A stretch of 64,000 bases of DNA from an uncultured Lachnospiraceae bacterium (lineage in GTDB: Bacteria > Bacillota > Clostridia > Lachnospirales > Lachnospiraceae), in NCBI GenBank assembly GCA_905234245.1, contig CAJOGN010000001.1, forward strand, positions 186,001 to 250,000. The letters are read 5' to 3'. Of this stretch, positions 2,800-57,100 are shown one piece after another. Each line of letters starts with the position of its first letter. Within the stretch, counting starts at the first letter, position 1. Made by a program: the position numbers and the translations under genes. The notes beneath the pieces were generated by a model. The model ran no database searches and was not told the origin of the DNA. It worked only from the letters and a program-made list of their open reading frames with translations.

Positions 2800-2836
2800 T
2801 GATATATTATATTAGTAAGATAATAGAAGGTAGTAA

Positions 2837-2869
2837 ATGAGAACCAAGAGTGTGAGTCTTGGTTCTCAT
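2837..2869 (+). ncRNA. Structured 5' leader hairpin P1 (copy A)
   Basis: Perfect 13-bp stem ATGAGAACCAAGA / TCTTGGTTCTCAT, 7-nt loop, followed by CTACTAGAGGAATCTCC. Confidence 0.75.
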
Positions 2870-2950
2870 TCTACTAGAGGAATCTCCTTGCATGAGGATA
2901 CACGTGCACTTACTCTGAAAAGAGCCATGCAAGAGATTACAATGAGAGGA

Positions 2951-3097
2951 AGTGAAAAACGTGGATCTGTATAGATTAATTCTCAGATCAGCCGCGGATG
3001 GTTTTTACAACCACCGTGGTGAAGAATTTACTCTTCACAAATTAAACGATGAGTACAATTCTTCTAAGTCTGATGAAAAGTCTAAGAAGACTAAATA
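2951..3097 (+). CDS. Small conserved phage protein, paralog of 16199-16351
   Basis: GTG start after GAGAGGAA; MKNVDLYRLILRSAADGFYNHRGEEFTLHKLNDEYNSSKSDEKSKKTK. Paralog at 16 kb shares protein with many silent changes. Confidence 0.75.
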
Positions 3098-3114
3098 AAC
3101 AGACTTTAAGCATA

Positions 3115-3155
3115 CAGCAACTGTTTAATCCATTCCTCATTAAACAGTTGTTAGG
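3115..3155 (+). terminator. Terminator-like hairpin (identical to copy near 16370)
   Basis: AACTGTTTAAT ccattcctc ATTAAACAGTT. Confidence 0.7.
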
Positions 3156-3309
3156 TCTTTAATAATAAATAAAGCTCTAGATTTTCTAGAGCTTTATTTT
3201 TTTATCCGTATTTTCTTTTTTTTAGATTATGTATCATATAAGTAAGAATAAAAAGAAAGGTAGATGGAGATAATATCAAGAGTCTAGCTTATCTATTGGA
3301 GGTAATATT

Positions 3310-3549
3310 ATGTATAATAAGACTACTAAGGAATACATCCTCAACACCCTCGCAGGAATCGGTGTCGGGAGTATCACCGAGATTGCTGTCCGGAAGATCT
3401 CCGGCAGTAAAAACATCAGCTCCGTGATAGGTGGTATCACTGCTGGCACCACCACCTGGATCCTCAACGGTACAGATTCCCGCGATATCAAGCGGGCGAT
3501 CTACGATTTCCGCATGAAGATTCGGGATCCGGAATGGGTTGGTAACTAA
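3310..3549 (+). CDS. Small Gly-rich membrane-associated protein
   Basis: ATTGGAGG upstream; LAGIGVGSITEIAVRKISGSKNISSVIGGITAGTTTWIL; followed by terminator hairpin. Confidence 0.75.
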   Translation: MYNKTTKEYILNTLAGIGVGSITEIAVRKISGSKNISSVIGGITAGTTTWILNGTDSRDIKRAIYDFRMKIRDPEWVGN

Positions 3550-3976: not shown

Positions 3977-4074
3977 AGTACATATATAAAGTGATATATT
4001 ATAATGGTGAAATTAAAAAAGAACTGGATGGAGATAATATCAAGAGTCCAGTATCTTATTAATGGAGGCAACAA

Positions 4075-4245
4075 ATGAAGAACAGTATCAAGGCTATCGT
4101 CAAAAGCATCAACTTTTCCAGAGAAGTGAGGGCTTATAATAAGTACCTCAAACTCAACGTGGCTCGGAAGGCAGCCGAGGGTGGGGGCAACAAGCTCTTC
4201 CACACCCTCGATAATATCCGCCGCCAGTGCGGATTCGTCAAGTGA
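4075..4245 (+). CDS. Small basic protein (56 aa)
   Basis: TGGAGG upstream; MKNSIKAIVKSINFSREVRAYNKYLKLNVARKAAEGGGNKLFHTLDNIRRQCGFVK; GC3-rich host-like codons. Confidence 0.65.
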   Translation: MKNSIKAIVKSINFSREVRAYNKYLKLNVARKAAEGGGNKLFHTLDNIRRQCGFVK

Positions 4246-16048: not shown

Positions 16049-16084
16049 TGATATACTATACCAGTAAGATATTAGAGGGTAGTA

Positions 16085-16118
16085 AACAAGAGCTAAGACC
16101 GCCATCTTAGCTCTTGTT
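16085..16118 (+). ncRNA. Structured 5' leader hairpin P1 (copy C)
   Basis: Perfect 14-bp stem AACAAGAGCTAAGA / TCTTAGCTCTTGTT followed by CTACTAGAGGAATCTCC; same fold as copy A with compensatory changes. Confidence 0.75.
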
Positions 16119-16198
16119 CTACTAGAGGAATCTCCTTGCATGAGGATAACCACTACACTTACTCTGAAAAGAGCCATGCAAGAGATTAATGAGAGGAA

Positions 16199-16351
16199 GT
16201 GAAAAACATGGATTTTTGTCAAATCATGCTAAAATCTGCGGCTGATTGTTTTTGTAATCATCGTGGAGAAAAGTTCACTCTTCAGCAACTAGCTGATAAG
16301 TATAACTCAGATAAAAACAAGTCTGATGAAAAGACAAAGGAGTCAAAGTAA
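16199..16351 (+). CDS. Small conserved phage protein, paralog of 2951-3097
   Basis: GTG start after GAGAGGAA; MKNMDFCQIMLKSAADCFCNHRGEKFTLQQLADKYNSDKNKSDEKTKESK. Confidence 0.75.
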   Translation: MKNMDFCQIMLKSAADCFCNHRGEKFTLQQLADKYNSDKNKSDEKTKESK

Positions 16352-16530
16352 TCAGGCACAAACTAACAGCAACTGTTTAATCCATTCCTCATTAAACAGT
16401 TGTTGTATCATTAATATTTAATTATAAAAGGGAGGGCTAAGCCCTCCCTATAATCCTTTTTTGTCTGTATAGCGAGTTTTTTCAATTATGTATTATATAG
16501 GTAAGAAAAAATAAAAAGGAGGCATATGGC

Positions 16531-54100: not shown

Positions 54101-57100
54101 CAACTGGATCACTGGTGGAAATAATGATGAAAAATCCGGAGGAAACGGTTCTGGTGGAGCTGGAAACGGAAAGTCCCTTGCTAGTATGATTGCTAATGCA
54201 TCTAAACCTACTAAGCAACCTTTCGGCGGATCTGGTAATGGTAATGTTCCAGAGAGACTAAATGGTATTCCATATTATTCTCAAAATGACCCAAGATGGG
54301 CTAATAAGAGCTATAATATGATTGGTGGAAGAAGTGACGGTGCTACCATAGGTGACACAGGATGTGGTCCTGCGGCTATGTCCATGGTTGTCAACGATAT
54401 GGAAAATAAACGTCCTACTCCAGCAGATATGGCTAATCTAGCTCAGAAAACTGGGGACAGAGATGAAACTGGAACCAATGCAAACTTCATTAAAAATAGT
54501 GCCAAGAGTTATGGTATTGACTCTTATCGTCAATTTTCACCAGACTCAGAAACCATTAAAAAAGGATTGTCCACAGGCAACCCAATGGTTCTACTCGGTC
54601 AAGGTGATAAGAATACACCATATACTCAAGTTGGTCACTATATCGTGGTTACTGGAATGGATAGTTCTGGTAATATCATTTATAACGACCCCAGAGGTGT
54701 TCAATACTCTGGTGTAATGGATGCAAATACTGTTCTGAATAGTACTCAGGCTGCATGGGCATTCAAAGATGCTACAGGTGGTAGAGGAAAGCTGTCTGAT
54801 AGTGAAAAACCGAAGACAGATAGAATCATGATATCACCTAATAACGGATACGAAAAAACAGTTACTCCCGGCAATTACCTCAGATATAGTATGGATGGTG
54901 TTTATCATTCCCTCGGAGGTAAGGGTGTTGAGAATCCAACTGAAGAAGATCTGTACAAAAACGACTTAACCGCAGATAGCTTACTTGATGATGAATACGA
55001 CACTCCGAAAGGACAGATGATAGCTCATGATACTACTAACACCGCCCTATATTCACCGACACCTGTGGGTGGACGAGGTGATGTTAATAGAATAAATGCA
55101 GCATCGATAGGTGGTAGAGGAACACCAGCAGAAGCTATCCAGGCATTGATGGGAGAGTATATCACAAGGCACTGGACACGAACCGACACTTCCGGTTATG
55201 GTGCATATAGATCGTCTTATGGTGGTAGATACCATGCCGGTATTGACCTCTGTTTTGCTTCCAATTCTTATACTGGTAGACCAATTAAATCATTTACTTC
55301 TGGTACAGTATATCTCACAAACAATAATGCTTCTGGACGTGGGTATTATATTATCATAAAAGATAATAATGGTTATTATCATTTCTATCAACATCTAAAC
55401 AAATACCCAACTCTAAAAGCAGGTGCAACCGTAAAAATTGGCGATGTTGTTGGTGGTTACGGAAATAGTGGTGCATCCCACGGAAACCATCTTCACTATG
55501 AAGTAAGGCCACCATCTGCCGCGAATCAGCCAGGTGGTGTAACTGGTACAGACCCAGGGCACAAAGGATTTATTAGAAGTAAGAGTGAACTTGCAAGATA
55601 TACTGTCAATCCATATACATACTTAAAACAATACATGAACGGAAAAATTGATCCATCTCAGCTTGGAACTATAGGATCTTCCGATGGGATTAGTCCTGGC
55701 TCTACAACAACAGGTGATGGTTCTACATCTGCTTATACGACCGCAACTCCATCTTATGATGGCGGGCTTATCACGCAATTGACATCTGCATTCGGTAATG
55801 TATCTAATGCGTTACTTGATGCTGCTGTTACAGGTGACCTTGACATTGACTGGAATGAGGTCCTTAAGAGGGGTGAAGCTGCTCAACAGGGCGCTGAACT
55901 TAATGCTTCCACTAGCTCTGGTTCTACTGACGTTCCATCTGTTTCCGGAAATCAAGGTTCACGAGAAGACAATGCAAAATATATTTATAAATTCTTAAAA
56001 GCTATTAATGTTCCAAATACTCATATAGCTGCAGTTCTGAGTAACTGGACAGCAGAATCTGGAATCGACCCAACCGGTGTTGAAACTATCTATTCACCCA
56101 AATATAAGATGTCTCAAGAGAAGCTAAATGCTATGAGCGATCCTAATGCATTCTCGCTGAATGTCATGTTCCCGAGATATGCTAGATCTGGTATTAAGCT
56201 TCATAAGAGTGCATATAAGGGCGACGATGGTAAATATTATCCTGGTGTCGGTCTTGGCGGATTTACTGGTCCTGCAGTTTCTGGACTGCTGAGAAAATCT
56301 CAAGAGATTGGTAAACCATGGTATGATCTGGAAACACAGCTAAGATACTTCAGTGACCCATCCGGCTCTGTATATACTCGTGGTAAATACGGTGGCCGTG
56401 ATTGGATTAATAAGGTATTTATTCCTAAGAAGTTCTCAAGTCCGGCTGAAGGTGCCAAATGGTTCGAAAAGAACTGGGAAGGCACCACATTCAAGCAAGC
56501 TGAACATATGAGAACTGCACAAGAGTGGTATAACAAGATGTCTGGTTGGGATTCCGGTGCTGGATTTGGCATTGGTGGCAGAGGTTCTGGCACTAATGTT
56601 TCCACTGGTCCTGACAAACTAAATGGTATTCCATATTATTCTCAGAATGACCCAAGATGGGCTACTAATAGATATAAACTTCCAAATGGTGAAGACGATG
56701 GTTCTACTATGTCTAACTCTGGATGTGGTCCAACTGCTATGTCTATGGTTATTAATAGTATGAAGGGTGATACTTCTCCTGTTGGAATGGCTAAACTAGC
56801 TCAGGCTACTGGGGATAGAGATGAAACTGGAACCAACTGGAACTTCATTGACAAAGCTGCAAATGCTTATGGAATCGATTCCACGAGAGCTACTAATCCG
56901 TCCTCTGATGTAATTAAGGCTGGATTGGGTACAGGACATCCAATGATTCTCTCTGGATATGGTTCTGAAAGTGATTCTCCTTATACTGATGCTGGTCACT
57001 ACATCGTAGCAACTGGTCTGAAAGGAAATCAATTAACTTACAATGATCCAAGAGGTAAAGCATACTCTGGATCCATGGATATTAATAAAGTCGCCGATAA

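Follow-up and report, generated by a model that had tools for sequence, protein, structure and literature searches.

Upstream of a small gene on a large phage contig lies what the comparison of seven natural copies indicates is a real, selected RNA structure, ordinary in kind (a phage early-gene leader) and unusual in belonging to a seven-copy cassette with a conserved 3' end. We give a probability of about 50% to the reading in which it is the structured 5' leader of a seven-copy early-gene cassette and would act in cis after transcription, a first stem (P1) serving as stabiliser or insulator and a second (P2) in recognition. The window that we analysed, 64,000 nucleotides in length, comprises bases 186001-250000 of C1, a contig of 258,041 bp with 35% GC whose ends overlap by 33 bp. 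Because of this overlap and base composition, C1 is probably a complete circular phage genome that was binned with a bacterial genome. As a 258-kb circular jumbo-phage contig it carries a multisubunit RNA polymerase (RNAP) of the AR9/PBS1 type, and the nearest annotated relatives of its encoded beta'-like RNAP subunits, at about 33% identity, belong to jumbo phages of Listeria, Bacillus and Staphylococcus. Closer relatives, judged by one RNAP subunit, were found in IMG/VR, namely G418 (70% identity), G420 (56%) and G419 (51%). Jumbo phages with their own RNA polymerases transcribe their early genes independently of the host, and the long 5' UTRs recorded in them have so far had no explanation.

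The first-pass annotation had reported two copies of the leader, A and C. Both are present where it had placed them, but a search of the phage's own assembly brought the total to seven, five of them outside the window. All lie on the plus strand, in the order L003, L007, L006, L005, L004, L001 (copy A) and L002 (copy C) along C1, and the genes that flank the cassette differ from copy to copy. Each cassette consists of an early-type promoter, P1, an AGAGG linker, P2 (usually enclosing a further hairpin, P3), a Shine-Dalgarno (SD) sequence, an open reading frame (ORF) of 43-47 amino acids and a 3' hairpin, P4; L007 is the most diverged copy. The parts of the two copies within the window are as follows, in window coordinates.

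2803..2810, plus strand: early-type promoter core of copy A, TATATTAT; predicted +1 at A2817, 6 nt downstream, by analogy with AR9
2829..2875, plus strand: P1 of copy A; GGTAG 2829-2833 with CTACT 2871-2875, a TA bulge, 2836-2849 with 2857-2870, loop 2850-2856
2876..2880, plus strand: linker AGAGG between P1 and P2 of copy A, identical in all seven copies
2881..2938, plus strand: P2 of copy A; AATCTC 2881-2886, bulged C2887 and TTGCATG 2888-2894 with CATGCAA 2926-2932 and GAGATT 2933-2938; P3 lies inside
2913..2924, plus strand: P3 of copy A, CTCT-GAAA-AGAG; the loop varies among copies
2945..2950, plus strand: Shine-Dalgarno sequence AGAGGA of copy A
2961..3098, plus strand: small ORF of copy A, 45 codons, GTG start, a second in-frame GTG at 2952, predicted pI 8.2
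3118..3150, plus strand: 3' hairpin P4 of copy A, CAACTGTTTAATCCATTCCTCATTAAACAGTTG; inner core identical in all seven copies
16052..16059, plus strand: early-type promoter core of copy C, TATACTAT; predicted +1 at A16066
16078..16123, plus strand: P1 of copy C, by pairing
16129..16187, plus strand: P2 with P3 of copy C, by pairing
16208..16351, plus strand: small ORF of copy C, 47 codons, ATG start
16370..16402, plus strand: 3' hairpin P4 of copy C, by sequence

The window also holds a further copy of the promoter region at 536-651 (67 bp at 94% identity), with another leader hairpin (GTGAGCATATATGG...CCATATATGCTCAC) and without P1 or P2; the copy B implied by the earlier naming is probably this promoter-only repeat.

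As first proposed, P1 of copy A is formed by 2836-2849 (AATGAGAACCAAGA) pairing with 2857-2870 (TCTTGGTTCTCATT), and P1 of copy C by 16085-16098 (AACAAGAGCTAAGA) pairing with 16105-16118 (TCTTAGCTCTTGTT). The two copies differ at exactly four positions in each arm and every one of these changes is compensated on the opposite arm (4/4), just as had been claimed; with four random changes in each 14-nt arm, perfect compensation would arise by chance with a probability of about 1e-5. The stem proved longer than originally described, since GGTAG/CTACT extends its base below a 2-nt TA bulge. The arms of P1 are 77% identical between copies, and in L007 the stem is shorter and largely replaced.

A model of 36 base pairs derived from six copies, with L007 withheld, recovered L007 at 71 bits. 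Across all seven copies, 11 of the 36 pairs are changed on both sides and 95.0% of cells are paired, against at most 4 double-changed pairs and at most 44% paired in slid controls. None of 500 shuffles reached the observed pairing percentage, double-change count or covariation score, a statistic that kinship inflates, as the set consists of seven related paralogues of one genome in an alignment fitted to the model. Some shared changes are single events (those in L005/L006 and in L001/L003/L004). Where one side of a pair has changed, the outcome is mostly a G-U pair on the transcribed strand, and six pair positions hold such intermediates. In L005 the alignment is shifted over P3, which contributes some of the few non-standard pairs; the others lie at helix ends of P1 and P2 or at one basal P1 pair. 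The copies being few and related, and the seven-row alignment having been fitted to the model, we regard the covariation evidence as strong in the case of P1 and moderate in those of P2 and P3. The compensatory changes are on the transcribed strand, and in all seven copies the element occupies a 5' UTR position, within predicted UTR limits, with conserved spacing. That the leader preceding the small gene contains a selected RNA fold is well supported by covariation among seven paralogues, by G-U half-steps, by a constant place after an early-type promoter and by the spacing between P2 and the start codon.

A different pattern of conservation was seen in the second half of the leader. The sequence CTACTAGAGGAATCTCC, said to follow both stems, is present in copies A and C, with a chance expectation of 0.15 at up to three mismatches. 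The AGAGG linker is 100% identical among the copies and the arms of P2 are 90-94% identical; as the inner helix of P2 is near-constant and hardly varies, its covariation support comes mostly from the diverged L007. P2 and P3 were found as described in copies A and C, whereas the outer two pairs of P2 are not preserved in L005-L007. The suggestion of a GNRA-type tetraloop in P3 did not extend to the family: the loop is GAAA in just four of the seven copies, AAAC in L005 and AATA in L007, and P3 is absent from L006, so that a conserved GNRA loop was rejected. In single-sequence folding the SD is for the most part unpaired in L001 and L003 and to some extent so in L006, whereas the other four copies (L002, L004, L005 and L007) have it partly paired, which argues against the leader being a simple uniform lock. 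The same folding, examined for a riboswitch, gave no alternative SD-sequestering fold common to the seven copies.

The sequence TATAYTATA is present in all seven copies, with the spacing TATAYTAT-N6-A. This resembles the early promoter consensus AAATATATATTAT-N6-G given for AR9 (PMC5312081), and with start positions assigned by the AR9 rule, transcription would begin at about 2817 in copy A and about 16066 in copy C. P1 begins about 12-15 nt from this predicted 5' end, not at the very end; in the copies checked, about 20-24 nt separate the end of P2 from the start codon. At 79 other early-type promoter sites in the phage, a strong hairpin is not general, about 10% having a hairpin with z < -3. 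Early-type promoters with strong hairpins within 70 nt, all of different sequences, were noted on C1 at 9680 (minus strand), 31612 (minus), 158212, 200370 (minus), 208406 and 230104.

In the reading that we favour, the leader would act in cis, after transcription. P1 would stabilise or insulate the message, a role that it suits because its letters are free and its pairing is fixed; pairing alone would matter there, and letters could drift. P2 and the AGAGG linker, whose letters are fixed, suit a role in recognition in which letters would matter, with P2 ending at what would be the edge of the ribosome footprint. Recognition may be by the ribosome or by a protein, for which the small protein itself and other phage proteins are possible candidates, and it would set how the small protein is translated at an early stage of infection. 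The leader appears to represent a new family of control elements in phage mRNA, and the earlier suggestion that it may act as a riboregulator of the downstream small gene is plausible.

The strongest competitor, which we nevertheless consider unlikely, is that specific regulation is absent, P1 and P4 being mere generic end-protecting hairpins, akin to the 5' stabilisers of Firmicutes, and P2 a spacer. Such protection would explain why P1 keeps its pairing and not its letters and could be largely replaced in L007, and strong hairpins do occur in the first 70 nt at some other early-type promoters. However, it requires neither a near-invariant P2 core nor the AGAGG linker nor the P4 loop, and the start of P1 some 12-15 nt inside the predicted message also sits poorly with it.

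The 3' hairpin raises a further alternative. The 36-nt core of P4 is 95% identical among copies and its inner stem and loop are identical in all seven; it has no adjoining U run, and a separate terminator-like hairpin lies downstream. In the leaders of L001-L006 the loop, AUUCCUC, has a full complement in GAGGAAU; in that of L007 the counterpart is GAGGGAU, with one G-U pair. Pairing between the two ends of the message, as in icaR, where a C-rich 3'-UTR motif pairs to the SD region (PMC3868564), would let the P4 loop bind GAGGAAU or the SD and thereby block translation or create an RNase III site, and both the invariance of the loop and the 7-nt complement in six copies fit this idea. We nonetheless judge it improbable: the leaders are purine-rich, the pairing energy in no single copy beats that of shuffled leaders (p 0.07-0.66 per copy), the P4 loop shows no compensating change, and P2 itself uses part of GAGGAAU in L001-L004. 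A broader version, which we rate as somewhat more doubtful, has the structured 5' leader and the invariant 3' loop cooperating, either in cis or from one of the seven transcripts to another; the paralogues would then form one RNA-linked regulatory network.

Attenuation by a leader peptide is very unlikely. AGAGG is followed about 11 nt on by an ATG within P2 in all seven copies, which could begin a short upstream ORF whose translation opens P2, but the frame is not conserved, running by eye to 8, 20, fused with the main ORF, 8, 20, 1 and 16 codons. We give slightly less credence still to a DNA-level palindrome (an operator, a cruciform or a site of recombination or packaging). P1 is a long inverted repeat, and compensated changes would preserve a palindrome as well as a helix; the G-U half-steps on the transcribed strand, however, favour RNA, the element always lies between an early-type promoter just upstream and the SD, and a bulged P2 that encloses P3 is unlike a DNA operator. 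Altogether, these features point to a fold of the plus-strand RNA rather than of the DNA.

The small ORF is itself under purifying selection, as judged from its substitution pattern, with dN of about 0.11-0.34 and dS from 0.37 to saturated, mostly above 1 or saturated, among the seven copies. Identity between copies is 56% at third codon positions and 79% at positions one and two. Set against the 56% at third positions, the values for the linker (100%), P2 (90-94%), P1 (77%) and the P4 core (95%) suggest that protein, leader and 3' hairpin each appear to be under selection. The leader always accompanies the same ORF family, the ORF never occurs on C1 without the leader, and a model of the small protein found the same seven copies on C1 and no others. 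No relatives of the protein were detected in the viral contigs, the genome contigs, INPHARED or 60 relatives of the binned genome, and it had no confident Pfam or PHROG family; AlphaFold2 predicted one low-confidence helix (pTM 0.31). Seven strongly structured copies with an invariant anti-SD-like loop seed would also suit a dual-function transcript whose main role is that of a regulatory RNA or decoy, with the CU-rich P4 loop or the structured leader as its means of acting in trans, but the protein-level selection on the ORF makes this the least credible of the alternatives.

The leader was called undescribed by the first-pass annotation, which agrees with our searches: it belongs to no Rfam 15 family, and no description of it was found in the literature. 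Rfam 15 gave no matches in the window at the gathering threshold. A weak likeness to RF03012 (Mu-gpT-DE RNA) over P2, at 2886-2944 of the window, scored 18.4 bits against a gathering score of 49 (E = 0.29), so that the leader is not a member. The DNA of the element had no match in INPHARED, and the leader covariance model, R1, gave chance-level matches only in 18 related viral records and simple hairpins only in about 300 genomes of the family of the binned genome, collections some of which may omit records very near the window's own genome. Two viral matches to the linker/P2 pattern and three to the 3' loop pattern were rejected, having no R1 match. An R1 match in G419 (16.8 bits) was ascribed to chance, as it had no early-type promoter ahead, related ORF or similar repeats; matches of 28-32 bits in the host-family genomes were also set aside, those inspected having little beyond a long hairpin and no P2 sequence. 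In G418, the nearest relative, available as a 114-kb fragment that allows comparison at three syntenic sites (L001, L002 and L004), the cassette is absent from all three. Other genes occupy these sites or, for L004, 212 bp separate the flanking orthologues, versus about 1.06 kb in C1. Each copy therefore behaves as a self-contained added unit, and this absence, together with that from the collections searched, makes the cassette look like an accessory unit that has spread within this phage lineage.

A second element, motif 2, was found in several large phages, where it lies in the 5' leaders of various genes. It consists of TGGAGATAATATCAAGAG (18 nt) held in a covarying stem of 4-5 bp and is unrelated to P1/P2. 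A scan of early leaders located TGGAGATAATATCAAGAG seven times on the plus strand of C1, one copy with one change, and two of these are in the window.

3260..3288, plus strand: motif 2 in the leader of ORF 3310-3549, the gene next after copy A
4024..4052, plus strand: motif 2 in the leader of ORF 4075-4245
46628, 59557, 85725, 105194 and 127664 of C1, plus strand: the other copies of motif 2, by sequence

Four of the seven P1/P2 cassettes directly precede a gene with motif 2, which is also present in L145, L146, L151-L154, L158, L160 and L161. An exact search of the viral contigs for TGGAGATAATATCAAGAG returned 18 stretches, most of them in a 5' leader within a stem of different letters. In these 18 sequences all four outer pairs are changed on both sides and 96.8% of cells are paired, versus at most 47% in slid controls, and none of 500 shuffles reached the pairing percentage or the covariation score; the invariance of the loop is partly by design because the search fixed it, which leaves the stem covariation unaffected. 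The resulting model found the seven copies on C1, copies in G419 and two in G432, which had not been used in building it. Motif 2 was not in Rfam at the thresholds tested, nor was TGGAGATAATATCAAGAG found in the literature examined. By these searches motif 2 is more widespread than the P1/P2 leader. Since the leader is confined to its own ORF family, whereas motif 2 precedes different genes, gene-specific or autogenous control is our leading guess for the leader. Together, the leader and motif 2 suggest dedicated leader RNAs on early genes of such phages. Because seven natural variants of one leader are available in this well-bounded case, structure-function tests can begin from natural compensatory mutants.

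Other repeats were seen on C1. Numerous dispersed repeats of 150-250 bp at about 75.3-75.9, 94.4, 102.5, 108.4, 123-127, 141-143, 165-167 and 173.8-174.5 kb, some with GAAGATATAGTC, look like group I introns or their remnants, to judge from sequence. In the window, repeats at 54245-54523 and 56606-56881 (75-89% identity, about 2.36 kb apart) are probably duplicated genes.

Three known systems invite comparison. The icaR mRNA of Staphylococcus aureus is controlled by pairing between its 5' and 3' UTRs (PMC3868564). Like it, the cassette combines a pyrimidine-rich motif in the 3' UTR with an SD-like run of purines in the 5' UTR to which that motif is complementary, although in the cassette this complementarity is energetically not above chance. 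The phage is of the AR9 type, with an early-type promoter core that resembles that of AR9 and a predicted start 6 nt downstream (PMC5312081). The 5' UTRs of AR9 are 26-491 nt long, and its authors note a motif in the early UTRs and another in the late ones, assigning a function to neither. In contrast, a scan of the AR9 genome record found nothing comparable to the leader or motif 2, the R1 match being at chance level. Hairpins that stabilise mRNAs from the 5' end are known from Bacillus phage SP82, aprE and T4 gene 32. P1 is like these in being a 5'-proximal hairpin that keeps its pairing and not its sequence; unlike them, the cassette adds a second hairpin conserved in sequence and a conserved hairpin at the 3' end.
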